IMG/VR virus record: IMGVR_UViG_3300046542_000459
Span: 1-24,373 of that record
Reading direction: 5' to 3' (one strand)
DNA from: a virus
DNA length: 24,373 nucleotides
Positions 6,545 to 22,155 of the stretch are shown piece by piece. The notes beneath the pieces are model-generated. The model searched no databases and was not told the DNA's origin. It saw only the letters and a list, made by a program, of their open reading frames with translations. Each line of letters opens with the position of its first letter. Position 1 is the stretch's first letter. Position numbers and translations under genes: made by a program.

Positions 6545-6672
6545 CGGAGAGCCCCCGGCGCGTAGGGCGGAGGGGTGGCGCAGCCGGCGGGGGCCGCGGC
6601 CAAGGCCAGGGCCAGGCCGACCAGGCCAATGACTGCGGCAGTCACGCCGGAGAGGGAGGCGAGCGCGCGCAT
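6541..6672 (-). CDS. secreted or lipoprotein-like micro-protein
   Basis: The ATG at 6672 overlaps the upstream stop as TGATG and opens a 43-residue frame ending at 6541. Residues 9-29 are a hydrophobic run (GVTAAVIGLVGLALALAAAPA). A cysteine follows at position 31 in PAGC, then the Pro-rich tail CATPPPYAPGALR. The lipobox is weak, because Pro occupies the usual Leu position, so it may be a lipoprotein or simply membrane-anchored. The small proline-rich tail is reminiscent of Rz1-type outer spanins, but the gene is far from the lysis cassette. Together with its coupled neighbour it forms a pair of membrane micro-proteins. Confidence 0.5.
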   Translation of the reverse strand: MRALASLSGVTAAVIGLVGLALALAAAPAGCATPPPYAPGALR

Positions 6673-7025
6673 CAGACGGACATCCGGTTGATCGCCCAGG
6701 CGTTCGCGTCGGCCACGCCGGCCCGGCCGATGCCGCCGGGGTAGTGCCGGCCGTAGTGGGCCACCGCCTCCTCATCCATGCCCAGCGCGCGGGCCTCGAC
6801 CGCACCGCGGCTCTCGCTGACAGCGCCCAAGGCCATGGCGGGGTCCTGCCCCAGGAAGGACGCGGCCATGTAGCCGAGGCACTGGCCCAGGTCGCCCGCG
6901 AAGACGCTCCGGCCTCGCTGGTCGGTCAGCGCGTCGAGGCCCGTGGTGATGACGTACCCGCCGTCACGGGCCTTGGCGATGTGCAGGGAGGTTGGGACGG
7001 GTCGGGTGGTGGCGTCGGTCGGCAT
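6672..7025 (-). CDS. hypothetical phage protein, first gene of leftward operon
   Basis: The 117-residue protein has a compact start (SLHIAKARDGGYVITTGLDAL) and a middle segment GDLGQCLGYMAASFLGQDPAMALG. I recognise no family. A strong GGAGGG Shine-Dalgarno precedes the ATG. It is the first gene after a three-box CCTAGG operator (7054-7090), and its stop overlaps the next start. It therefore leads a coupled chain running to 5041. Confidence 0.65.
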   Translation of the reverse strand: MPTDATTRPVPTSLHIAKARDGGYVITTGLDALTDQRGRSVFAGDLGQCLGYMAASFLGQDPAMALGAVSESRGAVEARALGMDEEAVAHYGRHYPGGIGRAGVADANAWAINRMSV

Positions 7026-7053: not shown

Positions 7054-7090
7054 CTATAGGGCGTTTCGCCCTAGGGCAACATGTCCTAGG
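7054..7090. promoter_or_regulatory. three-box CCTAGG operator, locus A
   Basis: Boxes CTATAGG, CCCTAGGG and CCTAGG are centred near 7056.5, 7072.5 and 7087.5. Between them lie the inverted arms GGGC-N5-GCCC and GGGC-N5-GTCC. The cluster sits 29 bp upstream of the ATG at 7025, where the promoter of the leftward operon should be. It is one of six loci in the window with this architecture. Confidence 0.75.
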
Positions 7091-7164: not shown

Positions 7165-7353
7165 CTAGGCCCAATCCGCCAGGGCGCGGAGCAGCGCGCG
7201 AGTGCGCTCCAGATCGGCGCGCAGCTCCTCCAGGTGTTCATCCGAGGCCTGCCGCTGGCGCGCCTTGGCGATGGCGGCCAGCCGGCTTCCCTCATAGGCC
7301 AGGAGGGCAGCGCGCAGGGTCGCGGTGTGGGGTGGATCGAAGGGCGGGGCCAT
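7165..7353 (-). CDS. hypothetical coiled-coil protein
   Basis: A 62-residue helical protein with heptad-like charge spacing (AKARQRQASDEHLEELRADLERTRALLRALADW). The ATG at 7353 overlaps the previous stop as TGATG; a GTG three bases upstream would give a GTGA overlap instead. It ends the operon that starts at 8251, and a GCGTTTAAAC motif lies immediately after its stop (7153-7162). Function is unknown. Confidence 0.6.
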   Translation of the reverse strand: MAPPFDPPHTATLRAALLAYEGSRLAAIAKARQRQASDEHLEELRADLERTRALLRALADWA

Positions 7354-8036
7354 CACGCCACCGCCGCCAGCAGATCAGCCGGCGCGTTGCTATTGGCCGC
7401 CACCATCGCAGAGACGCCCACCGTCCGCGCCATCGACACCATCACGTCCCGGAACAGGGCGGGCGTGGCGTCGCGGATGCGGGTCTTATCCTTCCCCCCG
7501 ATCAGGGCCATGCGGCCGACCCGGCGCGCCTTCTCGTAGCCGTAGCGCGCCACCATCTCAGGCGTCGGCCCGCTGTCGCTCTCGCCCCAAATCAGGTCGG
7601 GGAGATCGCAGCCCACCGCGTACAGCCACGTAGGCTTCCCGGCGAAGTGGCCGTAATGCCCCTGCGAGACGCAGCACGTCCAACCGCCGAAGGCGTCGGC
7701 CCACACCCACCCGCCCTTGCGCGGCGGAGCCTTGATGCCGAACCACGCCCAGGCGTGACTATCGCGAGGGTGTTCCAGCACGCCGCCGAAGTTGCGAACG
7801 GCGGTCAGCGCGGAGCCGAAGCACCCCCCGTCAGCGCCCAGCCGGTATTGGTGAGGCTTCCGCGGCGAGCCGTGCCAATAGCGGCCCCAGCGTTGGCAGG
7901 GCGGATGGGCAACGACGGGGTGAGGGCCGTCATAGCTGCGCGCGTCGCGGGTCACGTCCCACGGCTCGACGCCGGCTTGCCCGAAGTAGCACCCGTCAGT
8001 CTCGACGTAGAGGGCGGCAATCTGGCGCGCGCTCAT
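7353..8036 (-). CDS. conserved phage protein with PPCQ and LEHP motifs
   Basis: This 227-residue protein belongs to a family I recognise from proteobacterial phages without an assigned function. The ordered motifs are ALYVETDGCYF, HPVVAHPPCQRWGRYW, LGADGGCFGSALTAVRNFGGVLEHPRDSHAW, a Cys-rich GGWTCCVSQGHYGH and KPTWLYAVG. PPCQ followed by LEHP and a Trp echoes motif IV (PCQ) and the ENP motif of cytosine-C5 DNA methyltransferases, but no SAM-binding FxGxG is visible. It could be a diverged nucleotide or DNA base-modifying enzyme. I chose ATG 8036 because it overlaps the upstream stop (ATGA); the longer frame encodes only Arg-rich, non-protein-like sequence. Confidence 0.75.
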   Translation of the reverse strand: MSARQIAALYVETDGCYFGQAGVEPWDVTRDARSYDGPHPVVAHPPCQRWGRYWHGSPRKPHQYRLGADGGCFGSALTAVRNFGGVLEHPRDSHAWAWFGIKAPPRKGGWVWADAFGGWTCCVSQGHYGHFAGKPTWLYAVGCDLPDLIWGESDSGPTPEMVARYGYEKARRVGRMALIGGKDKTRIRDATPALFRDVMVSMARTVGVSAMVAANSNAPADLLAAVA

Positions 8037-8251
8037 TGGGCGGCCTCGTACTCGCCGTCCGTGCGGGCGAACTCGCCGTGGTAGTAGGCGGCTTGGCCGT
8101 GCTCGACGCCTTCGGAATGGCGGATCACGAACGCGCAACCGTGGAGCTTGGAGAGGGCCTTAGCGTGCTGCTCAGCTCCGGCCCGGTCGCTGGCGAAGTC
8201 CCGGCGGACGGTCGCGCCGTTCTCCGCCATGTGGTCGGTGAGATAGTCCAT
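8033..8251 (-). CDS. hypothetical small phage protein
   Basis: The 72-residue protein reads MDYLTDHMAENGATVRRDF and continues with AEQHAKALSKLHGCAFVIRHSEGVEHGQAAYYHGEF, an alpha/beta pattern without a recognised family. A GGAGGG Shine-Dalgarno sits 7 bp before the ATG. It leads a three-gene leftward operon directly downstream of operator locus B and is translationally coupled (ATGA) to the next gene. Confidence 0.65.
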   Translation of the reverse strand: MDYLTDHMAENGATVRRDFASDRAGAEQHAKALSKLHGCAFVIRHSEGVEHGQAAYYHGEFARTDGEYEAAQ

Positions 8252-8297: not shown

Positions 8298-8333
8298 CCT
8301 AGGACAAGTTGCCCTAGGGCACAATGCCCTATG
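8298..8333. promoter_or_regulatory. three-box CCTAGG operator, locus B
   Basis: Boxes CCTAGG, CCCTAGGG and CCCTATG are centred at 8300.5, 8315.5 and 8330.5, exactly 15 bp apart, with pentanucleotide spacers between GGGC/GCCC arms. It lies about 47 bp upstream of the ATG at 8251. Twelve bases to its right is a GCGTTTAAACGC palindrome (8345-8356). Read on the opposite strand, palindrome plus operator closely resemble locus E at 20665-20711. Confidence 0.78.
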
Positions 8334-11364: not shown

Positions 11365-11861
11365 GCCGCGCGCCGTTGTCCTTGGGGTTGATCGTCGTTC
11401 ACCGCCTCGCACTCCCAGGCCCCGCCGTGGGCCATCGCCAGGTGCGCCCGGCAGTAGGTAGCCCGGCCGTCGCGCGGCAGGCAGCACGACACCAGGTCCG
11501 AACCCTCGCCAGCAACCGGCCAATGGCATTCGCTGGCGTCGTTCCGCTCTAGCCAATGCTTCGGCGTGGAGCCGGGCAGCGGGCCAGGCATCGCCGGCCA
11601 GGCCGTCAGCTCGCGAGAGACAGCCGCGCCGAACCCCATCCCTACGCGTCCGGCCTTGTTCGTGGACCGAGCGCCGGCCCGGACCGCCATGAGGTGGGTT
11701 TGGGCCGCCGCGTCCGCCGACCTGACCAGGCCCAGTCGGCGGAGCTTGCCGCGCACCGCCGAGGGGGTCACGCCCAGCGCCAGGGCAATCTCAGGACCGC
11801 CCAGGCCCTCAGTCCAGAGCCGGCGCAGCGTCGCCAGCTTGTCGTCATCCCAGCCGCTCAT
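11361..11861 (-). CDS. GcrA-family cell-cycle transcription regulator
   Basis: The 166-residue protein has the GcrA N-terminal helix-turn-helix (WDDDKLATLRRLWTEGLGGPEIALALGVTPSAVRGKLRRLGL, residues 4-45). Its C-terminal sigma-factor-binding-type domain contains ECHWPVAGEG, CC and ATYCRAHLAMAH (residues 111-144), with the conserved Cys and His positions. Host GcrA binds sigma-70 and promotes transcription at promoters carrying CcrM-methylated GANTC. Length is close to that of the host protein. It sits between the nuclease and primase genes with ATGA overlaps at both ends. A phage copy could redirect host polymerase or drive phage genes, but only four GANTC sites exist in the window. The family is confident, the role inferred. 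Confidence 0.88.
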   Translation of the reverse strand: MSGWDDDKLATLRRLWTEGLGGPEIALALGVTPSAVRGKLRRLGLVRSADAAAQTHLMAVRAGARSTNKAGRVGMGFGAAVSRELTAWPAMPGPLPGSTPKHWLERNDASECHWPVAGEGSDLVSCCLPRDGRATYCRAHLAMAHGGAWECEAVNDDQPQGQRRAA

Positions 11862-12625
11862 CGGTCCAGCTTCCAGCAGCGTTCCGGGAAGTCGCAGAAG
11901 CCCTTGCACACGAAGTGCGTCGGGTCCTTGAACGGGCGGGGCAGCAGTTCCCCCGCGTCGGTCGCCTTGATGATCCTCACGGCCCGGTCGGATCGCAATT
12001 GCGCCTCCTCCAGGTCAAGCGGGATAGCGATGTGCATTTGCTCGCCGCTGTCCAGGTTGGACACCGTGAACAGGGCCGGATTGGAGAGGTGGAGATAGGT
12101 CTGATAGATCGCGACTTGCGCGTAATAGGTCGGAGAGAACTTCTGCAGGCCGTCGCGCTCGATGCCCTTGTACGTGTCGCGGCCGACGCCCTTATGCTCC
12201 CAAAGGAACGGGTACTTGAGGCCGGGGACCGGCGGGCCGCCATGAAACACCCCGTCCGGGTGGCCCTTGAACCGGCCGTCCAGTTGGGTGAACAGCGCCT
12301 TCTTGCCCGTGTGCGGGTCGCTGTCTCGAAGGTCGAAGCCGGCGTCTAGGAACAGGTAGCGCGCCCACTCCTCCGCCATGTGGCCCAGCTCCATCTTGCG
12401 CAGGCCTTCCGGCGTCGGCTCGCGCTCACGGGGCGCGCCGGCAAACTCGAATTGGATAGCGCGTTCACAATGGCCGCCGATCCCCGACGCGCCGACGTAC
12501 TCCCGGCGCGGCTGGAGGGCGCGCTTGCGGCGCATACCGGCGACCAGCAGGCCGTTAACGGCGTCGTTCGTCGCCGCGGTGCGATGGGCCTTGCTGTTGA
12601 AGTCGAAGGAAACGGGCGCGTTCAT
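11858..12625 (-). CDS. Cas4/RecB-like PD-(D/E)XK exonuclease with Fe-S cysteines
   Basis: The 255-residue protein carries the full nuclease signature: GHMAEE (His82), GHPDG (Asp124), LWEHK (Glu143, Lys145) and the RecB motif YYAQVAIYQ (Gln170, Tyr174). Four cysteines, Cys53 in GGHCERA and Cys240, Cys244 and Cys250 in CKGFCDFPERC, are placed as in Cas4/AddB-type nucleases that hold a 4Fe-4S cluster. It probably resects DNA ends for the neighbouring Sak4-like annealing or strand-exchange protein, forming a phage two-component recombination pair. A GAGGT Shine-Dalgarno precedes ATG 12625. Confidence 0.87.
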   Translation of the reverse strand: MNAPVSFDFNSKAHRTAATNDAVNGLLVAGMRRKRALQPRREYVGASGIGGHCERAIQFEFAGAPREREPTPEGLRKMELGHMAEEWARYLFLDAGFDLRDSDPHTGKKALFTQLDGRFKGHPDGVFHGGPPVPGLKYPFLWEHKGVGRDTYKGIERDGLQKFSPTYYAQVAIYQTYLHLSNPALFTVSNLDSGEQMHIAIPLDLEEAQLRSDRAVRIIKATDAGELLPRPFKDPTHFVCKGFCDFPERCWKLDR

Positions 12626-12634
12626 GGCCGGACC

Positions 12635-13111
12635 TCAGAAAGGAAGCTCGCCGGCCGTGATCGGGCCGCCGAAGGGGATAGCGTCGTCAAAAGGGATTTC
12701 GGGCAGCTCCCCCGCCGCGACCGCCGCTTCGCGGTAGCCGATGCAGGCGCACATGAGGGCGTCCAGAGCTTGGCGCTTGGAGAGCTGGAAAAAGGGCACG
12801 TCCGCCGGGATGCCGGCGCTCGCCATCGCCGCGCCGATCTGAGGCATAGCCGCCTCGACCATCCCGCGCAGCTTGGCCTCCTGTAGATCGAACACCACCA
12901 GGTCCGTAAGCCGGCCCGAGGTGAGGCGCTTCATGCGGCCGGCGATCCAGACGCCAATGACCGCCGCGGCGATCCCCGACGCGTTCCGAAGACCAGGCAC
13001 CAGGGCTTGCAGCTCCGCAGCCGCTTCGCCCAAGGCCTCGCTCTCGTCCGCGTCGGGGCCGCACAGGGGCCGCTCCAGCAGCTTCGCTTTTGAAGTGGCC
13101 CCCTTAGCCAT
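12635..13111 (-). CDS. hypothetical protein with SSB-like acidic C-terminal tail
   Basis: This 158-residue protein of unknown family is mostly helical (LGEAAAELQALVPG, DLQEAKLRGMVEAAMPQIGAAM, SKRQALDALMCACIGYREAA). It ends in PEIPFDDAIPF (137-147) and a final GELPF. The FDDAIPF stretch looks like the DDDIPF tip through which bacterial SSB recruits partner proteins. The adjacent SSB-like protein lacks such a tip, so this protein may supply the partner-binding tail of the replication complex; that is inference. It starts 2 bp after the SSB-like gene's stop. Confidence 0.7.
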   Translation of the reverse strand: MAKGATSKAKLLERPLCGPDADESEALGEAAAELQALVPGLRNASGIAAAVIGVWIAGRMKRLTSGRLTDLVVFDLQEAKLRGMVEAAMPQIGAAMASAGIPADVPFFQLSKRQALDALMCACIGYREAAVAAGELPEIPFDDAIPFGGPITAGELPF

Positions 13112-15149: not shown

Positions 15150-15632
15150 CTAGGCGGCCACCGCTTCGACGGCTTCCGACACCGTGAGCGCCGGATTGCC
15201 CGGCTTGAGGGTCCGGGCCGGCTCGAATTGCTTGCGGAGGAACGACGGCCAGGAGGTGTAAGCCTTCTCCTCAACCTTGCGTTCGACCTTGATGTACTCG
15301 CTGGGATCGTCGCCGCCGGCCGCGATCTTCGCCGAGACTTCCGCCAGCTTGGCTTGGTCCCACTCTACTTTCTTCGGGGTATTCACCTCGAAATCCAGGC
15401 CGTGGACGACGACGTGAACCGTTCCGGTGTCGGAGCCCTTGGCGTCGTAGGCGGCCTTGATGGGGTCTTTCAGGCGAGCCAGGACGGCGGCCTTAATCAG
15501 CTTGCCGGCGTCGTCCGCCTCTTTCTTGGTCGCATCCGCGAACGCCAGCAGATCGGCGAGATACGGAAGGTCCATGCTCTTGAGCATGTCGGGATCGGCC
15601 ACGATGGAGGCCAGGGCGGGAGCGTTGCGCAT
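15150..15632 (-). CDS. conserved phage protein, first gene of replication operon
   Basis: The 160-residue protein has an N-terminal helical region (LPYLADLLAFADATKKEADDAGKLIKAAVLARLKD) and a beta-rich middle (GTVHVVVHGLDFEVNTPKKVEWDQAKLAEV). It ends in a Lys/Glu-rich segment SEYIKVERKVEEKAY. I have seen similar proteins next to Sak4/SSB genes in phages, always unannotated. A GGAGAC Shine-Dalgarno precedes ATG 15632. It is the first gene downstream of operator locus C, so it leads the long replication-recombination operon. Confidence 0.7.
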   Translation of the reverse strand: MRNAPALASIVADPDMLKSMDLPYLADLLAFADATKKEADDAGKLIKAAVLARLKDPIKAAYDAKGSDTGTVHVVVHGLDFEVNTPKKVEWDQAKLAEVSAKIAAGGDDPSEYIKVERKVEEKAYTSWPSFLRKQFEPARTLKPGNPALTVSEAVEAVAA

Positions 15633-15668
15633 TGTTGTCTCCGGTGCGCTATGCCGTGGGCGTAATGC

Positions 15669-15708
15669 CCTAGGGCGATACGTCCTAGGTAGGGCAATCT
15701 GTCCTAGG
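15669..15708. promoter_or_regulatory. CCTAGG operator pair, locus C
   Basis: Four boxes are centred at 15671.5, 15686.5, 15690.5 and 15705.5. They form two 15-bp-spaced pairs offset by 4 bp, each an inverted repeat with a 5-bp spacer (GGGC-GATAC-GTCC and GGGC-AATCT-GTCC). The cluster lies 37 bp upstream of the ATG at 15632 and directly after the resolvase stop. It therefore probably controls the promoter of the replication operon. Confidence 0.78.
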
Positions 15709-15710
15709 CG

Positions 15711-16217
15711 TCAAGCGCCTGTTGACTTGCTCGCGAACGCAGCGATTAGGGCCGCCTCCGCCCTCCCGTCGTCCTTCACCCGCAGAAGCTTGTTGGCCGC
15801 CATCGGGAACAGCTCCGAGGCCTTCGCCCGGCTGGAGTTCTTGTCCTTGGTGACGCCCATTGCGCGCTTCCACTTCGCCGGGCGGACGAAGGTCATGGGG
15901 ATAAAGTTGGCCCCGAGGACCCCGCGAACGTCGCCGTAGTTGCGGCCGAATGAGAAGGCGTGGCCGGAGCCCGGCATTTGCCCCACCAGCTCCAGCACCG
16001 CGCGGGCGATGCGGTGCGACCGCTCGTCCACCCAGCGGCCCAGCTCGTACACGTCCACTAGGCCGTCCGCCGTCCTTGGCATGTCGAAAAATTCGACACA
16101 CCGTGTTACGGGATCGAGCAGAGCGAGCGCGCCCTTCAGGCCAGGGTCCACACCCAGGATTTCGACGGCCGTAGCCGGAGCGACAGGTGGCACAAGGGCC
16201 AGGGCCGGCTGATGCAT
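15711..16217 (-). CDS. RuvC-like Holliday junction resolvase
   Basis: The 168-residue protein carries the RNase H-fold start EILGVDPGLKGALALL (catalytic Asp24). A middle block contains FSFGRNYGDVRGVLGANFIPMTFVRPAKWKRAMGV, as in phage RuvC-like resolvases. The C-terminal DDGRAEAALIAAF carries Glu154 where RuvC proteins more often have Asp (DHADAxLLA type). It would resolve branched replication and recombination intermediates before packaging. It is the first leftward gene across from the repressor, with a repressor operator 13 bp upstream of its ATG, so it is probably repressed in the lysogen. Confidence 0.82.
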   Translation of the reverse strand: MHQPALALVPPVAPATAVEILGVDPGLKGALALLDPVTRCVEFFDMPRTADGLVDVYELGRWVDERSHRIARAVLELVGQMPGSGHAFSFGRNYGDVRGVLGANFIPMTFVRPAKWKRAMGVTKDKNSSRAKASELFPMAANKLLRVKDDGRAEAALIAAFASKSTGA

Positions 16218-16229
16218 TTGAGGAGTGTG

Positions 16230-16290
16230 GCGGTATGTGTACCGCTTTGCAACGGCGACGTACCGCTTTTTGTGTCTTCACAGATACCGC
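16230..16290. promoter_or_regulatory. left repressor operators (GCGGTA/TACCGC)
   Basis: GCGGTATGTGTACCGC (16230-16245) is a perfect 6-bp inverted repeat with a 4-bp spacer, followed by TTT. A second half site TACCGCTTTT lies at 16261-16270 and a third TACCGC at 16285-16290. The same sequence elements occur at the right side of the repressor gene. They sit between the divergent resolvase and repressor starts, as expected of the OL/pL region of a lambdoid-type switch. Confidence 0.78.
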
Positions 16291-16337
16291 CGAAGCAGCT
16301 TAAGATAGCCCCCGTAACCACGCCGCAAACTCGGGTT

Positions 16338-17036
16338 GTGAGACCTTTGGAACCTCAGGAAGACAAGTCGCCCACCGTTCTCCAGGCCCGCGTAACCGAG
16401 CGGCTGGAGACACTTGGCTTGAAGCCAGCACCGGCGAGCATCAAGGCGGGGGTCCACAAGGACACCGTGCGGAACATCCTGCGCGGCAGATCGGCGCACC
16501 CGGCCTACGAGACCCTTGCAGCGCTGGCCCAGGCCCTGGAATGCGCGCCGGGCTATTTGACAGGCGATCAAGCGGACGCCATGTCGCACCCCAACGCTAG
16601 TGTGGAGGCGGCAGGGGCCGAGAGACTAATCGTGAGACATGAAGTAGGCGCGGGGTACTGGCGCAGCAGCGTAAATCAGCTTCCGCTTGGCGAGGGTGTT
16701 GTCGCACCGGCCGAGGAATACAGTAACTTTGCCCAATGGCTTGAGAAGGTATTGGGCCGGGGATTTGACACCGAGTACCCGGAGGGCACGCTTATTCACG
16801 TAGTTGACGCCTCCGCTATTGGTCACGCGCCCCGCCAGGGGGACCACGTTGTTGTGACCCGCATCCGGGCTGACGGTGAAGCTTCCGAGCGGTCGATTCG
16901 CGAGGTGACCTTTGACGGCGCGCGCCGGCTGTTCACGGCCAAGTCCACCGACCCGGAGCTGAACGGGGCTATCGAGCTTGGGCCGCATGACAGGGTTGCA
17001 GCCCTCATCCTAGGGTCGTACCGGCCACGCCGCTAA
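16338..17036 (+). CDS. CI-type phage repressor, S24 fold lacking catalytic Ser and Lys
   Basis: The 232-residue protein has an N-terminal helix-turn-helix (residues 18-70; SIKAGVHKDTVRNILRGR) and a C-terminal LexA/CI-like S24 domain (about 125-232; YPEGTLIHVVDA, GDHVVVTR, STDPEL). In this repressor family the cleavage serine lies in GxSMxxxYPxGT. Here the segment reads GRGFDTEYPEGT, with Gly142 for Ser and Phe143 for Met. The base lysine of the E-x-T-L-K motif appears as Arg188 in ERSIREV. It should therefore not self-cleave with RecA. I prefer GTG 16338, since the frame from ATG 16212 would translate through the operators. Operators flank the gene. It holds one of the four GANTC sites (16895). 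Confidence 0.85.
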   Translation: MRPLEPQEDKSPTVLQARVTERLETLGLKPAPASIKAGVHKDTVRNILRGRSAHPAYETLAALAQALECAPGYLTGDQADAMSHPNASVEAAGAERLIVRHEVGAGYWRSSVNQLPLGEGVVAPAEEYSNFAQWLEKVLGRGFDTEYPEGTLIHVVDASAIGHAPRQGDHVVVTRIRADGEASERSIREVTFDGARRLFTAKSTDPELNGAIELGPHDRVAALILGSYRPRR

Positions 17037-17047
17037 AAAAACGGAAC

Positions 17048-17090
17048 TTGTACCGCTTTTCTGCGTTGACGCGGTACGTGTACCACTTTA
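17048..17090 (+). promoter_or_regulatory. early rightward promoter with repressor operators
   Basis: A half site TTGTACCGCTTTT (17048-17060) precedes the inverted repeat GCGGTACGTGTACCAC (17071-17086). A -35-like TTGACG (17066-17071) abuts the repeat, and a TTTAGC sequence (17087-17092) lies about 15 bp downstream as a possible -10. Repressor bound here would block polymerase. The first gene starts at 17142 after a GGAGGA ribosome site. This corresponds to the OR/pR position of lambdoid phages. Confidence 0.7.
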
Positions 17091-17141
17091 GCACAACCTC
17101 CAGGCAAGGGCGTTCGCCCGGCCCACCTGGAGGAACCCCAC

Positions 17142-17444
17142 ATGAGCACGACCACCTCCCGCCGCGAGCTGTTGGACAGCCGCGACCCCTACGACGCGGG
17201 AATTCTCGGATACGACGGCCGGCGTGATCCGGCCCAGGACGGCGAAGGTCTGATCTTCTCCGTTGAGCGCGGTACGCCCAACGCCCCGTGGTTCTACATT
17301 CAGACCGCAGAGGGCGAGAGCGCCCCCATCCACCACCACACCATGCGGCAGATCGCGGAGGAGGCCTTGCGCTACCTCGCGCACCACACGCCGCCGGCCA
17401 ACGACGCCGCCCTAGCCGCCGCCAACGATCAGGTGGCAGCGTGA
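17142..17444 (+). CDS. hypothetical early protein
   Basis: The 100-residue protein has no recognised domain. The first 35 residues are polar (TSRRELLDSRDPYDAGILGYDGRRD). A beta-like segment follows (EGLIFSVERGTPNAPWFYIQ), then a helical tail (HHTMRQIAEEALRYLAHH). GGAGGA eight bases before the ATG is one of the best ribosome sites in the window, suggesting strong expression. It is the first gene after the repressor-controlled early promoter, a slot often used for host takeover or Cro-like functions. No helix-turn-helix is visible. Confidence 0.72.
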   Translation: MSTTTSRRELLDSRDPYDAGILGYDGRRDPAQDGEGLIFSVERGTPNAPWFYIQTAEGESAPIHHHTMRQIAEEALRYLAHHTPPANDAALAAANDQVAA

Positions 17445-18028
17445 GCGCCGCCGGCCTCAAGCGCGGCCCGCAGAACAGCCCGCCGCGCAACGTCCCCATC
17501 TACGCATGGGGCGGCTACTCGACCCGCGCGGCGGCCAAGGCTGGCGCGGTGAAGGCCCTGCGGAAGCGTGGCTTTGAAGGCCCCAAGGAACCCGGCGATT
17601 TCAGGATCACGCGGGAGGCCTCCGGCTACCGCTGGAACTCTGCGACGCCGGCCCCGGTGTCGCATCAGATCCCGCCCAGCCCGGCAAACGACCACCCGCG
17701 CGCCGAGCCCCCGAGGCAGGCGACGTTGGAGCAGAACCGACGCATCCGGGCGTTCCTGGACGACGCCTACGACGAGGAAGCCGGCCGCTACTACCACGAC
17801 GGCAGCGACGCCAAGGCGGCGGAAATGCTCAAGGTCCCGAGGGCGTGGGTGACCACCATCCGAGAGTTGTACGGCCCCGACCAGAACGACGGGGCGGCCA
17901 AGCGCAGGGCGGAACTCGACGCCGCCCATGCCGAAGCCGTCGCCGCCTCCGCCCGGTTCCTGGAGCTGGCCCAGGAAGCGGAAGCCCTCGCCGCCAAGCT
18001 CGCCCAGGCCCGCAAGGTGTTGGGATGA
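17441..18028 (+). CDS. hypothetical early protein with HTH-like and coiled-coil segments
   Basis: Starting at GTG 17441 in a GTGA overlap with the previous stop, this 195-residue protein has a compact N-terminal domain (NVPIYAWGGYSTRAAAKAGAVKALRKRGFEG, then DFRITREASGYRWNS), a proline-rich linker and a possible helix-turn-helix (GSDAKAAEMLKVPRAWVTTIRELYG). It ends in an Ala-rich coiled coil. The longer frame upstream overlaps the first early gene and is rejected. Function is unknown; DNA binding is possible. Confidence 0.68.
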   Translation: MSAAGLKRGPQNSPPRNVPIYAWGGYSTRAAAKAGAVKALRKRGFEGPKEPGDFRITREASGYRWNSATPAPVSHQIPPSPANDHPRAEPPRQATLEQNRRIRAFLDDAYDEEAGRYYHDGSDAKAAEMLKVPRAWVTTIRELYGPDQNDGAAKRRAELDAAHAEAVAASARFLELAQEAEALAAKLAQARKVLG

Positions 18029-18261
18029 TCGCAGCGAACGACAACCAGGCGCGGACCTATTGGCTCGATGCCGACCGCATCATGACCGGTGGGCTCTTGG
18101 GCGCCCGGTTCATCGAGACGGAGGAGGCGCACCAGCTCGCCGGCTACTTGTCTCGCGAAGCGCTCGCCGCCCACCAGGAGGGCCGGGAATCGGTCGCCCA
18201 GGTGTTCGCCCGGCAGGCCACCGAACTCTTGGAATGCCTCAACAGCAGGAAGGCCGCATGA
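18025..18261 (+). CDS. hypothetical small early protein
   Basis: A 78-residue protein (MIAANDNQARTYWLDADRIMTGGLLGARFIETEEAHQLAGYLS...) is linked by ATGA overlaps to the genes on both sides. The C-terminal half is an amphipathic helix (HQEGRESVAQVFARQATELLECLNS). No family is recognised. One of the four GANTC sites lies in it at 18187. Confidence 0.65.
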   Translation: MIAANDNQARTYWLDADRIMTGGLLGARFIETEEAHQLAGYLSREALAAHQEGRESVAQVFARQATELLECLNSRKAA

Positions 18262-18647
18262 CCGCTCGAACCCCCGACCAGGTGGACGCCCATGTGGGCG
18301 ACCGCATCCGCACCCGTCGCCGGGAGCTGACGCAATCCCAGGACGCCTTGGCCGAGCTGATCGGCGTGAGCTTCCAGCAAGTGCAGAAGTACGAGGGCGG
18401 CAAGAACCGGGTCAGCGCTTCGGCGCTGGTCAAGATCGCGGGCGCTCAGGGCGTCCCGGTCGCCTTCTACTTCGAAGGCCTCGGCCTCCGAGCGGACATC
18501 GCCGCCATGAGCCCCGAGGCCGCCGACACCCGCGCTTGGCTCGACAGTGAGGAAGCGTGGGCAGTCGCCAAGTACGCCGCCCGCATGTCCGCCGAAATGC
18601 GCGCCGCCTTCCGCCGGATCGCCGCCGTTCTGTCCCTCAACCCGTAG
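18258..18647 (+). CDS. XRE-family HTH transcription regulator
   Basis: The 129-residue protein has a classical Cro/CI-type helix-turn-helix: VGDRIRTRRRELTQSQDALAELIGVSFQQVQKYEGGKNRVSASALVKIAGAQGVPVAFYFEG (about residues 13-75). A helical C-terminus follows (SEEAWAVAKYAARMSAEMRAAFRRIAAVL). It resembles short HTH regulators widespread in alphaproteobacteria that have a similar C-terminal helix. Being in the early operon, it could be the Cro-like switch protein, a late-stage repressor of early genes, or the factor binding the CCTAGG operators. ATG 18258 overlaps the previous stop (ATGA). Confidence 0.85.
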   Translation: MTARTPDQVDAHVGDRIRTRRRELTQSQDALAELIGVSFQQVQKYEGGKNRVSASALVKIAGAQGVPVAFYFEGLGLRADIAAMSPEAADTRAWLDSEEAWAVAKYAARMSAEMRAAFRRIAAVLSLNP

Positions 18648-18658
18648 GAGAAAGACCC

Positions 18659-18913
18659 ATGTTTAAACGCGTTCTCGACTTGCTGTTTGCGCCGACCGTC
18701 GCCACCGCGACCAAGGGCCTTTCCCGGATGCTGGACCAGCTCCAGCGCGCCGAGGAGGCCGCCAAGCGTCGCGCCGCCGTCTCCCGCGATCTGCGCGACC
18801 TCCTGCGCAACAAGGCCCTGGAGGAGGATTGCGAGGCCAACCTTCACGACGCCGAAGCCAAGCGCGCCCGCCGTCTCGCCGGCCAGATCGACGCCTTTCT
18901 GCTCCCCAACTAG
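18659..18913 (+). CDS. hypothetical coiled-coil protein, last gene of early operon
   Basis: The 84-residue protein starts MFKRVLDLLFAPTVATATKGLSRML and continues as a long charged helix (QLQRAEEAAKRRAAVSRDLRDLLRNKALEEDCEANLHDAEAKRARRLAGQ), likely a coiled coil. A GGAG ribosome site precedes ATG 18659. The start codon is directly fused to a GTTTAAACGCG motif (18661-18671), which encodes FKR. The gene ends 27 bp before a strong terminator. Confidence 0.68.
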   Translation: MFKRVLDLLFAPTVATATKGLSRMLDQLQRAEEAAKRRAAVSRDLRDLLRNKALEEDCEANLHDAEAKRARRLAGQIDAFLLPN

Positions 18914-18939
18914 GCCGATCCTCCCCGCCTAGTCCAACT

Positions 18940-18969
18940 AGCCCCCGGCCCCGCGCCGGGGGCGCTTTT
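18940..18969 (+). terminator. rho-independent terminator of early operon
   Basis: GCCCCCGGC, a short loop and GCCGGGGGC are followed by GCTTTTC on the plus strand. This should end rightward transcription from the repressor-controlled promoter, just before the excisionase gene. Confidence 0.8.
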
Positions 18970-18985
18970 CTCTCAGAGCCCCGCT

Positions 18986-19186
18986 ATGAACGATAACCAC
19001 AAGCTCGCGTACAGCATCCCCGAGGCGGCCGACGCCCTAGGCGGCGTGAGTGAGAGCACCGTGTGGCGGATGATCCGCGACGGCGACCTGACCACCTCGC
19101 GCGTTCGGGGGCGCACCGTGATCCGCCGGGAGGTTCTTGTGGCCTACCTGGACGCCCAGGACGCCGCCCTAGCCCACGCTGCGTAG
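18986..19186 (+). CDS. xis: excisionase-like HTH protein
   Basis: The 66-residue protein is a MerR/HTH_17-type DNA-binding domain: SIPEAADALGGVSESTVWRMIRDGDLTTSRVRGRTVIRREVLVAYLDAQ. Small proteins of this type next to an integrase act as recombination directionality factors. No good ribosome site is visible, and the gene follows the terminator, so it needs its own promoter or read-through. Its 3' end overlaps the convergent integrase by 18 bp. An isolated CCTAGG occurs inside at 19036 without a partner box. Confidence 0.78.
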   Translation: MNDNHKLAYSIPEAADALGGVSESTVWRMIRDGDLTTSRVRGRTVIRREVLVAYLDAQDAALAHAA

Positions 19187-20392
19187 CGGCTCGACGTTCG
19201 AACCCACCGGGCGGTCACAGAAGTCCGCCCAGGCCTCCATGAGGGGCCGCCGACGCTCCAGGGCGTCCGAGCGCCAATAGGCCCGCTCCGTCTGATCGCC
19301 CACCGCGTGGGCCAGGGCCATCTCCGCCAGCTCCCGCGGGTAGCTGGTCGCCTCGCCGGCCCACTCCCGGAAACTCGACCTGAAGCCGTGGACCGTCACG
19401 GCCACTTCCATCCGATCCAGCACGCGCTCCAGCGCGCCGTCCGACAGCGGCTTTCCGGGCTTCGCGCCGGGGAAGATGAAGCCTTCGGTCCCGTACTCTT
19501 GGGCCACCGCGTCCAGGATCGCCAGGCAGCGCGGCGACAGCGGCACGCGATGCTCCAGCCCCGATTTCATGTGCGGGCCAGGGCAAACCCACACGCCTGC
19601 CGCGCGGTCGATTTCCGGCCACTGCGCCAGGCGCACCGGCTTGGTTCGGGAGGCGGTTAGCATCGTGAACTCTAGGGCCCTGGCCGACAGCGCCATGCGC
19701 TCGCGCAGCTCCGCCAGGAAAGCCGGAACCTCCTGATATGGCAGGGCCGTGAAGTGGCCCCGCTGGAGCCCCCGCAGACGCGGCAGCAGTTCCGACAGGT
19801 TCTCCTTCCAGGCCGCCGGGTTGTCGCCCGTGCGCAGCCCCCGGACCTTCGCCGCGCCAAGGACGCGTTCCATCCGCTCGCGCACCCGCGCCGCCGTCTC
19901 CGCCTTCGCGCTCCAGATCGGCTTGAGGGCGGCCAGCACGTCCGCTAGCGCCACGTCTCGAACCGGCATCGCCCACACGGCCGGCGCGTGGGTGCGCAGG
20001 CTGTTCTCCCATTGCTTGGCTGTCTTCGGGTTCTTCCAGCGCGGCGTCATGCTGGCGATGAGATCGAGGGCGACCGCCCCGAACGTCACCACGGCCTCAG
20101 GGGCGGGCGCTGGAGCCTTCCGCGCCTCAATCGGGTTGATGCCCCGCCCCACCAACTCCAGGGCCGCGTTGCGCAGCTCCCGAGCCTTCGCGAGGCCAAT
20201 CTCTCCCGGACCATCGCCGGCCGAGCCCAGGCCCATCTCCTTGCGCTTGCCTTGCCACTTGAACATGAACAGCCAGCGCCGCGCGCCGCTCTCGTCCACG
20301 ACCAGGTAAAGGCCGTCACCATCGGCCAGGCGCTCCGGCCCCTTGGCCGTCGTCACGGTGCGGGCGGAAAGGCCCTTCACTCGCTGTCCCAT
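19169..20392 (-). CDS. int: tyrosine-family integrase, P4-type
   Basis: The 407-residue protein has an N-terminal arm-binding DUF4102-type domain (ERLADGDGLYLVVDESGARRWLFMFKWQGKRKEMGLG). A core-binding domain spans about 100-215, and the catalytic domain has Arg249 (TASRTKPVR), Lys276 (HMKSGLEHRVPLS), His335 and Arg338 (HGFRSSFREW), His362 (ALAHAV) and Tyr372 (AYWRSD). All catalytic residues are present. It recombines attP with a host attB, typically a tRNA gene for this group; no tRNA-like sequence is seen here. The upstream region holds operator locus D and repeated TACCCCACCA sequences that may be arm sites. Confidence 0.92.
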   Translation of the reverse strand: MGQRVKGLSARTVTTAKGPERLADGDGLYLVVDESGARRWLFMFKWQGKRKEMGLGSAGDGPGEIGLAKARELRNAALELVGRGINPIEARKAPAPAPEAVVTFGAVALDLIASMTPRWKNPKTAKQWENSLRTHAPAVWAMPVRDVALADVLAALKPIWSAKAETAARVRERMERVLGAAKVRGLRTGDNPAAWKENLSELLPRLRGLQRGHFTALPYQEVPAFLAELRERMALSARALEFTMLTASRTKPVRLAQWPEIDRAAGVWVCPGPHMKSGLEHRVPLSPRCLAILDAVAQEYGTEGFIFPGAKPGKPLSDGALERVLDRMEVAVTVHGFRSSFREWAGEATSYPRELAEMALAHAVGDQTERAYWRSDALERRRPLMEAWADFCDRPVGSNVEPLRSVG

Positions 20393-20661
20393 CAGTACCC
20401 CACCACTTACCCCACCAACGGGGCCGGATTGAATGCTAGGAGCTGATAGGCGATGACAGGCCTAGGTCAATACGCCCTAGGTGTCGCATGGGCCTTTGGC
20501 AGGCGGTGACAGGGCATGACAGACAGGTGCGGGGGGCACTCGCACCGCCATACCCTCCGAGACGAAACGCCCCGTTTCGGCCCCCTTACCCCACCACTTA
20601 CCCCACCAGCGAAAAAAGTTCGGCTGACACCGCATGACAGGCTGTGACCCGGCCCCAACAA
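20393..20661. repeat. int-proximal repeat region, attP candidate
   Basis: This gene-free stretch carries two identical 22-bp copies (20396-20417 and 20587-20608), each made of two TACCCCACCA units 12 bp apart. The copies are 191 bp apart. TGACAGG or TGACAGA heptamers recur at 20454, 20507, 20517 and 20635, and a perfect CGAAACG/CGTTTCG hairpin lies at 20563-20579. Clustered short repeats next to a P4-type integrase start are what arm-type integrase and excisionase sites look like. The core crossover site cannot be identified without the host attB. Confidence 0.5.
20461..20481. promoter_or_regulatory. two-box CCTAGG operator, locus D (int promoter)
   Basis: CCTAGG boxes at 20461-20466 and 20476-20481 are 15 bp apart, with the sequence CCTAGGTCAATACGCCCTAG. 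They lie about 70 bp upstream of the integrase ATG, so the factor reading the other loci may also control integrase. Confidence 0.68.
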
Positions 20662-20663
20662 AA

Positions 20664-20712
20664 TGCGTTTAAACGCACATAGGGCATTGTGTCCTAGGGC
20701 GTATTGTCCTAG
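20664..20712. promoter_or_regulatory. TGCGTTTAAACGCA palindrome plus three-box CCTAGG operator, locus E
   Basis: A 14-bp perfect palindrome TGCGTTTAAACGCA (20664-20677) directly precedes boxes centred at 20680.5, 20695.5 and 20710.5, exactly 15 bp apart, with arms GGGC-ATTGT-GTCC and GGGC-GTATT-GTCC. The cluster is about 50 bp upstream of the SprT-like gene's ATG. Palindrome plus operator are a near copy of locus B read on the other strand. Other copies of the palindrome core GTTTAAAC are at 762, 4373, 6384, 7155, 8347, 14736, 18661 and 22213, with GTTTAAGC at 11293. Confidence 0.78.
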
Positions 20713-20761
20713 ATAGGTCTTGCGCAAGGGCACTCCCGCCCGGCGCACAAGGGACCGCCCC

Positions 20762-21829
20762 ATGACCGCCTCCGCCCTCCAAACCCCCGAAGCCTTCGAA
20801 GTCATCACCGACGCCGACAACGGCGCGCACTACGTGGTGGAGATCGCCACGGGCGAACGGGTCGCCGGCCCCTACCCGCTCAAGAAGACGGCCAACCGCC
20901 GCGCTCGCCAGCTCTGCGGGCAGGAAGCCCCCGCCCAGGCTGACGAGGCCCTGGAGCCCCGCGAACCCGAGGGCCTGGACGCCGCCGTGCTGGAGGAGGC
21001 CCTGGAGGAGGTCCCCGCGGCCAAGCCGCCCCTGTATGAGCTGCACCAAGCCGAGCTGGCCCGCCAGGCCGCCGAGGAGCCCGAGCAGGCCGCCGAGGAG
21101 GCCCCGGCCGAGGAAGAGGAAGGCGACGACGAAGCAGCGCCCCACGCGCCCGCCGTGAGCCGGCCGTTCCAGCTCGTCGAGCCGGCGACCATCGCGACCC
21201 GCGAGGATTGGCTTATCGCCGCGACCGTTCGCATTCGGCCGATCCTGGAGAGCATGGCCGGCCTTGAGCTGCCGGCGGTGCGCGTTACCTGCGGCTGGCC
21301 CTCCAAGGGCGGCACGGGCGGAAAGAAGCGCACCATTGGCGAGTGCTGGAACCCGGAGGCGTCCAGCGACGGCCACGCGGAAGTTTTCATCAACCCGATG
21401 GAAGCCGACCCCCAAACCGTTCTGGCGATCCTGACGCATGAGCTTATCCACGCCTGCCTCCCGAAGGGCACGGGCCATAAGGCCCCGTTCGTGAAAGCCG
21501 CGAAGGCCGTTGGCTTCGCTACGCCGGTCACGCAACTGACCATGCCGGACGAGCTGCTGGCGTGGGTTTGCCCGCTGGTCGCGGCCCTCCCGGACTACCC
21601 CCATGCGGCCATCAACCCGAGGGGCGCGGAGGGCGAGAAGAAGAAGCAGACCACCCGCATGATTAAGGCGGAATGCCTCCTGGAGCACGACGGCGAGCCC
21701 TGCGGCTACACCGTCCGCCTCACCGCAAAGTGGATCAAGGCGGCCGGCGCGCCGATCTGCCCGCGTCACCGGGAGCCGATGTTCTGCGACATGCCCGACG
21801 ACGCCCCGGAAGGCGAGGGGGACGAATGA
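20762..21829 (+). CDS. SprT-like zinc metalloprotease domain protein
   Basis: The 355-residue protein has an N-terminal segment of about 50 residues (FEVITDADNGAHYVVEIATGERVAGPYPLKKTANRRARQL), a long acidic Ala/Glu-rich linker (55-130) and a SprT-like metalloprotease domain. The active site is THELIHACLPKGTGHKAPF, with zinc ligands His226 and His230, base Glu227 and probable third ligand His239. A C-terminal zinc-ribbon-like segment has Cys305, Cys314, Cys333 and Cys342. SprT/Spartan proteins cleave DNA-protein crosslinks, and a phage version may clear protein roadblocks or host DNA-bound proteins. ATG 20762 is preferred to the TTG at 20720. It is controlled by operator locus E and coupled or near-coupled to the HTH gene downstream. 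Confidence 0.82.
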   Translation: MTASALQTPEAFEVITDADNGAHYVVEIATGERVAGPYPLKKTANRRARQLCGQEAPAQADEALEPREPEGLDAAVLEEALEEVPAAKPPLYELHQAELARQAAEEPEQAAEEAPAEEEEGDDEAAPHAPAVSRPFQLVEPATIATREDWLIAATVRIRPILESMAGLELPAVRVTCGWPSKGGTGGKKRTIGECWNPEASSDGHAEVFINPMEADPQTVLAILTHELIHACLPKGTGHKAPFVKAAKAVGFATPVTQLTMPDELLAWVCPLVAALPDYPHAAINPRGAEGEKKKQTTRMIKAECLLEHDGEPCGYTVRLTAKWIKAAGAPICPRHREPMFCDMPDDAPEGEGDE

Positions 21830-21841
21830 GCCCGGATTGCA

Positions 21842-21863
21842 CCCTAGGGCGAAATGCCCTAGG
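21842..21863. promoter_or_regulatory. two-box CCTAGG operator, locus F (HTH gene)
   Basis: CCCTAGGGCGAAATGCCCTA is the most symmetric copy: boxes centred at 21845.5 and 21860.5, with full GGGC-GAAAT-GCCC arms. It lies about 60 bp upstream of the TTG start of a small HTH gene, suggesting that the gene is autoregulated. Confidence 0.75.
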
Positions 21864-21921
21864 TTCCCTCCCCCGGCGCAGCCTACAAGGCGAGGCCGTA
21901 GTACCAGGGGAGCCCCGCGCT

Positions 21922-22155
21922 TTGACCGCCGACGAATACCGGAGCGCCATCGATCGATTGGGCCTCTCCCAGGTCAAGGCCGGCGCGTTCTTGGGCGTGG
22001 ACCAGCGCAGCAGCCGGCGCTACGCCGCCGCCGAGGTCGCCATACCGGGTTCCGTGGAGCTGGCGCTGGCGTGCGCGGTCCACCTAGTCGAAGATCAGGG
22101 CTGGACGCTCGACCAGGTGCAGGCCCTTCGCGAGCGCGTCACCGCCGAAGCCTAG
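21922..22155 (+). CDS. small HTH DNA-binding protein, candidate CCTAGG-operator regulator
   Basis: From TTG 21922 the frame gives 77 residues dominated by a Cro-like helix-turn-helix (ADEYRSAIDRLGLSQVKAGAFLGVDQRSSRRYAAAEVAIPGSVELALACAV) and a short C-terminal helical segment (DQGWTLDQVQALRERV). GGGGAG nine bases upstream is a good ribosome site. A longer version from ATG 21826, in an ATGA overlap with the SprT-like gene, would translate straight through operator locus F and add 32 residues of non-domain sequence. I consider it less likely, but it cannot be excluded. Autoregulatory placement makes it the best candidate to bind the six CCTAGG loci. Confidence 0.75.
   Translation: MTADEYRSAIDRLGLSQVKAGAFLGVDQRSSRRYAAAEVAIPGSVELALACAVHLVEDQGWTLDQVQALRERVTAEA

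Follow-up and report, generated by a model that had tools for sequence, protein, structure and literature searches.

An Aca1-like helix-turn-helix protein and its candidate operators at six transcription units of a viral genome

What reads the short palindromic boxes that precede six transcription units in the virus record IMGVR_UViG_3300046542_000459? The 24,373 nucleotides of this IMG/VR record, referred to here in full as the window, encode a 77-amino-acid helix-turn-helix (HTH) protein (21922-22155), and we consider it very likely that the palindromes are the operators of this phage-borne, Aca1-like protein, an autoregulatory repressor that would shut down the integrase (int), replication, SprT-like and small-gene units. 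A sequence-only reading of the same DNA had placed CCTAGG-like boxes at the six loci, where all of them are indeed found, and had described them as inverted repeats 15 bp apart, and once 16. The boxes are real, but the unit proper is a 15-bp palindrome, AGGRCRNNNYGYCCT (17 bp counting the flanking T and A), and, because such units abut, CCTAGG is only the junction of two of them or the outer edge of an array; the step between units is 15 bp inside arrays, with a single exception of 19 bp, not 16 (15671 to 15690). The window holds 11 copies (10 full and 1 weak), all of them intergenic and at the six loci, with 17-mers starting at 7057, 7072, 8300, 8315, 15656 (the weak copy), 15671, 15690, 20463, 20680, 20695 and 21845.

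The scan with a weight matrix that the sequence-only reading had proposed was made with a matrix trained on 119 sites from other viral contigs, the window sequence being excluded, and it recovered exactly these 11 sites: the ten full copies score 20-28 bits, the copy at 15656 scores 12 bits, and no further position in the whole window reaches 4 bits. Sixty Markov shuffles gave a top score of 16.7 bits and 0.15 hits of at least 8 bits per shuffle, and, counted strand by strand, a relaxed 18-mer pattern matches the window 15 times and its reversed control never. The argument that such clusters should be under selection owing to the rarity of CTAG fails for this phage, in which the tetramer is found 46 times against 46.7 expected from a Markov model; CCTAGG occurs 16 times in the window, 12 of them inside the arrays.

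The same operator recurs in other viral contigs, where it is embedded in promoters. A scan of these contigs for TTGACN{2,4}TAGGGCRNNNYGCCCTA returned 91 stretches, against 2 for the reversed pattern, and in those stretches the operator occupies the spacer between a TTGAC -35 element and a -10 element. Where the spacer is 17 bp (62 distinct sites), the one -35 position that the pattern leaves unspecified, the sixth, is A in 61%, and the -10 element has T at positions three and six in about half. The unrelated contig IMGVR_UViG_3300023063_000005 carries 16 strict operator copies, most of those inspected lying mid-promoter, as in TTGACA-CCTAGGGCATGATGCCC-TAGGTT, before separate small genes. Across 30 whole records the strict operator is present 1 to 16 times each and the reversed control in none, although one operator per record is to be expected because the records were selected by it.

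Members of one protein family accompany these promoters. When the 91 promoter-operator loci and 120 GC-matched control loci were searched with the window HTH protein as the only seed (E < 1e-3), relatives were encountered in 37 of the former and in none of the latter (Fisher p 1.7e-16), and a profile built from these first hits found members in 58/91 and 3/120 (Fisher p 2.5e-24). The nearest promoter lies upstream and on the same strand for 49 of 59 HTH genes, mostly at a distance of 250-1000 bp with at least one small gene between and sometimes directly upstream. A reverse test started from 50 distinct loci picked by protein alone, with the motif ignored; the collection was scanned with seven closer family members, since a profile made from the full set of 32 proved too divergent. 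AGGNCNNNNNGNCCT was found no more than 650 bp upstream in 24 of these loci and a control pattern in 0/50, and 16 of the 24 operator-bearing loci show TTG[AC] in the -35 register. Outside the window, a tandem array occurs in a single viral contig, L325; its units at 13092, 13111 and 13126 follow one another at steps of 19 and 15 bp, the same two as at 15656-15690 in the window, and this array is directly upstream (25-73 bp) of a family member starting at 13067. In a 5.2-Mb Kiloniellales genome that came to light through its DNA sequence only, a single strict operator is present, and the best family member encoded there follows it at about 115 bp, and in Bradyrhizobium phage ppBeUSDA76-2 TAGGGCCACTTGCCCTA stands upstream of a family member with space for one small open frame between them. 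Co-occurrence, same-strand upstream placement, the protein-first test and the L325 array together support the choice of the 21922 protein as the best candidate regulator, its binding to the operator being predicted.

The sites could instead belong to another DNA-binding protein, from the phage (CI-like, 16212; HTH, 18258; Xis-like, 18986; GcrA-like, 11556) or from its host, with the 21922 gene as merely one of the targets. The window does encode these several further regulators, and in Roseateles, Mitsuaria and Rubrivivax tandem arrays of the same consensus precede genes for cytochrome bd-type oxidases, the neighborhood of which contains no strong family member. We nevertheless regard such an arrangement as unlikely: homologues of the 18258-18647, CI-like and Xis-like proteins were found at 0/91 operator loci and of the GcrA-like protein at 1/91, against 37/91 for the 21922 family, loci picked by the HTH protein alone recover the operator, and a half-site base varies with HTH clade. 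The first of these counts also tells against 18258-18647, the other candidate that had been put forward. The third point is a hint that counts for little, as the covariation of loop residue 39 with the half-site (Arg with AGGGCC, other residues with AGGGCR; Fisher p 1e-5 for the best column scanned) is essentially one clade split. One HTH clade (L273, L276, L287, L291, L294, L309 and L321), in which the recognition helix is followed by a loop containing GER[DES], pairs with AGGGCCAWTGGCCCT-type operators and not with AGGGCR. In Aca10, an arginine in the corresponding loop is critical for DNA binding (PMC9410881).

The nature of the 21922 protein is in keeping with its proposed role as repressor of its own unit and of the others. 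By itself the 77-residue sequence matches no Pfam or NCBIfam entry, but the family profile, compared with the PDB, matches Aca1 first (4e-8), followed by a small HTH regulator, Aca2 and Aca3, and the family thus consists of small HTH proteins related in sequence to Aca1. The AlphaFold model (predicted local distance difference test [pLDDT] 96) is a five-helix, single-domain HTH that superposes on Aca1 at 1.3-1.4 A over 57-58 residues, with a fold close to those of MqsA, HigA2, Aca2, Aca10 and Aca1. A CI/LexA (S24)-type immunity repressor, which would combine an HTH with a C-terminal S24-type domain and with divergent early promoters, was considered and rejected, the protein being a single domain of 77 amino acids and a separate CI-like gene being located at 16212-17036.

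The likeness to Aca1 of Pseudomonas phage JBD30 extends from the protein, a small HTH with a close fold and the best PDB profile match, to its DNA. Aca1 binding DNA contains TAGGCACAATGTGCCTA (PMC9410881), and the Aca1 operator shares with TAGGGCRNNNYGCCCTA the 17-bp palindrome length and the TAGG/CCTA ends; in both systems the repeat sits in the promoter of the regulator's own unit, and many relatives of the window protein have at least one small gene between promoter and HTH gene, in the manner of acr-aca operons. The HTH gene of the window is the first behind the 21845 operator; in other contigs the promoter is followed by small genes, ArdC-like ones among them. The half-site here is TAGGGCR, in contrast to TAGGCAC for Aca1, the window operators lie at six units in abutting arrays rather than at the protein's own promoter alone, and no known acr gene was identified (no search against an Acr collection was made). 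The closest folds besides Aca2 are the HTH domains of the antitoxins MqsA and HigA2, but no toxin partner gene is seen beside the window gene. Like the repressor of mycobacteriophages L5 and L1 with its stoperators, the 21922 protein would be a single phage repressor with many genome-wide sites; stoperators are described as asymmetric (PMC1934351), whereas the window sites are symmetric and placed at promoters.

Where the window operators can be set in register with a putative promoter, they would fill its spacer. On the minus strand the 15690 operator lies between TTGACG (15709-15714) and TACCTA (15686-15691), and that of int (20463-20479) has a -35-like GCGACA and, across a 17-bp spacer, TAGGCC. 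The operator at 21845-21861 lies between TTGCAC (21837-21842) and TAGGTT (21860-21865), 60 bp before the HTH start codon, which places an inverted repeat in the core promoter of the protein's own operon, as in Aca systems; relatives have strong TTGAC promoters. One dimer would be expected on each palindrome, and a dimer bound between the -35 and -10 elements would exclude RNA polymerase; on two or three abutting operators, several dimers would blanket promoter and leader together. The HTH protein would limit its own synthesis through the 21845 operator and, as it accumulates, silence the int, replication, SprT-like and two small-gene units, five in all, a shut-off of early genes in the manner of Cro- or Aca-type proteins. 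In Aca families, core-promoter inverted repeats and repression by the cognate Aca have been seen in reporters (PMC9410906).

Two further possibilities can be weighed against autoregulatory repression. The HTH protein might be an activator or a dual regulator, a notion suggested by the position of the palindrome inside the promoter spacer, where MerR-type promoters carry the palindrome of their regulator. We judge this very unlikely, as the spacers here are 16-18 bp and near optimal already, unlike the long spacers of MerR promoters, and other Aca proteins with a core-promoter repeat repress (PMC9410906). Tandem 15-bp repeats do have a superficial resemblance to iterons or centromere-like sites, but it is scarcely credible that the arrays are structural elements, such as partition or replication sites, for they stand at six operon starts, in promoter register, and are represented in other phages by single copies.

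A number of observations weigh against the repressor reading. At best the hexamers of the window read TTGACG, TTGCAC and GCGACA, which are weak matches, so its promoter register is judged by comparison with the strong promoters that other phages have; a sigma-70 consensus scan reported none of the six loci, and the TTG-like match of the two-operator arrays is partly made of operator sequence itself. No operator of the pattern used was present at 26 of the 50 protein-picked loci, some of the positive loci come from phages related to one another, the 62 HTH proteins falling into 23 clusters at 60% identity, and enrichment is seen for a RuvC-like gene too (10/91 operator loci, 0/120 controls). 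The model fold is also near to the MqsA and HigA2 HTH domains. The operators, their positions, the kinship of the protein, its co-occurrence with the operator and the upstream placement in many other phages are direct observations; from them we infer that the protein binds, that it represses and does not activate, when it acts and that it reaches every one of the six units.

The sequence-only reading had taken the boxes for a second, undescribed global control circuit. A phage-wide operator set is indeed present, but its type has precedent: the protein is similar to Aca1 and the operator to the inverted repeat of Aca1, and an Aca-type autorepressor with a promoter repeat is a known kind of system. 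The new elements are the operator with its protein family, the arrangement in abutting arrays and the reach across six units, int and replication among them. Neither the motif nor, for any bacterial phage, a phage-wide regulon of Aca type was found described in the literature searched, the coverage of which was partial. Aca proteins of bacterial phages are known as local repressors of acr operons, and for Aca-like genes that have no acr close by the role has yet to be settled (PMC9410906). In archaeal rudiviruses, 11 of 13 early genes of SIRV2 share an upstream regulatory sequence, and Aca8, an Aca-type winged HTH, has been proposed to silence them (PMC11065993); there the promoters are archaeal (TATA/BRE), in contrast to the bacterial -35/-10 promoters with a spacer palindrome described here, and the likeness drawn here is one of regulon layout. 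The window ties an Aca-like protein to an operator at six units, with 16 sites in another contig, and therefore offers a ready test of the solo-Aca question. It is conceivable, and we suggest it tentatively, that Aca1-like solo HTH proteins are global switches of early genes in temperate phages and that the spacer palindrome marks whole regulons (6 units here and 16 strict sites in IMGVR_UViG_3300023063_000005) rich in unrecognized antidefense and takeover genes. If so, the motif could be used to find such genes. Being embedded in strong early-type promoters, the operator is in any case suited to searches for early genes of phages about which little is known.

The genes under the putative control of the 21922 protein are diverse. 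On the minus strand, two abutting operators (7057-7073 and 7072-7088; array 7057-7088) precede a leftward unit headed by a gene for 117 amino acids (6672-7025), and two more (8300-8316 and 8315-8331; array 8300-8331) precede the leftward small genes 8033-8251, which is the first of its unit, 7353-8036 and 7165-7356; family scans assigned neither 6672-7025 nor 8033-8251 to a family. Three operators (15656-15706, minus strand; 15656 weak, 15671 and 15690, at steps of 15 and 19 bp) lie upstream of the replication/recombination unit, which starts at 15632 with a DUF7173-like (PHROG 2480) gene (15150-15632, minus strand) and also encodes an AAA protein, a Cas4-like exonuclease, a GcrA-like protein and an AAA primase/helicase-like protein. 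The GcrA-like protein (11556-11909; Pfam GcrA, 2.6e-11) points to an alphaproteobacterial host. A single operator (20463-20479, minus strand) precedes the tyrosine integrase (19169-20392, minus strand). On the plus strand, two abutting operators (20680 and 20695; array 20680-20711) precede the gene for a SprT-like protein of 355 amino acids (20762-21829), with a HELIH motif in its translation and a match to PHROG 6361 (function unknown), and the single operator at 21845-21861 precedes the HTH gene itself (21922-22155, TTG start). Single-protein scans with the HTH and SprT-like proteins found no close relatives, and a megablast search of the phage against annotated phages gave no match. In other contigs, L129, L101 and L060 among them, the products of genes that immediately follow the promoter-operator include an ArdC N-terminal domain (antirestriction), DUF7249, DnaA C-terminal-like and HD-domain proteins and a recurrent unknown family of 106 amino acids. 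At one locus (L002, 470-2830) every promoter-operator is followed by a near-identical leader with an inverted repeat, CGGGCGAYGGTGCCCG, immediately before the ribosome-binding site.

Similar elements were sought in genomes with a 21-bp double-CCTAGG pattern, which gave 35 hits, about the chance level that we estimate for 257 Gb; of these, we regard none as meaningful other than the Roseateles-type arrays and the Kiloniellales site. The former (L013, L018, L023, L031, L034, L038 and L039, in Roseateles, Mitsuaria and Rubrivivax) consist of AGGRCRNNNYGYCCT with a 15-bp period, and the oxidase genes behind them are CioAB-like. Pasteurellaceae genomes (L009, L014, L015, L029, L030, L040, L042 and L043) share CCTAGGACGRSYCGTCCTAGG-like elements, several with a ggggctggg-like flank, which look like a different conserved element.

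Two other repeats were noted in the window. Nine GTTTAAAC 8-mers (762, 4373, 6384, 7155, 8347, 14736, 18661, 20667 and 22213), mostly occurring as GCGTTTAAACGC, against 0.04 expected, constitute a second and unexplained repeated element, several copies of which lie at gene starts or adjoin operator arrays. GGTAYGTGTACC-like repeats flank the CI-like gene at 16220-16250 and 17050-17090 and are probably that gene's own operators.

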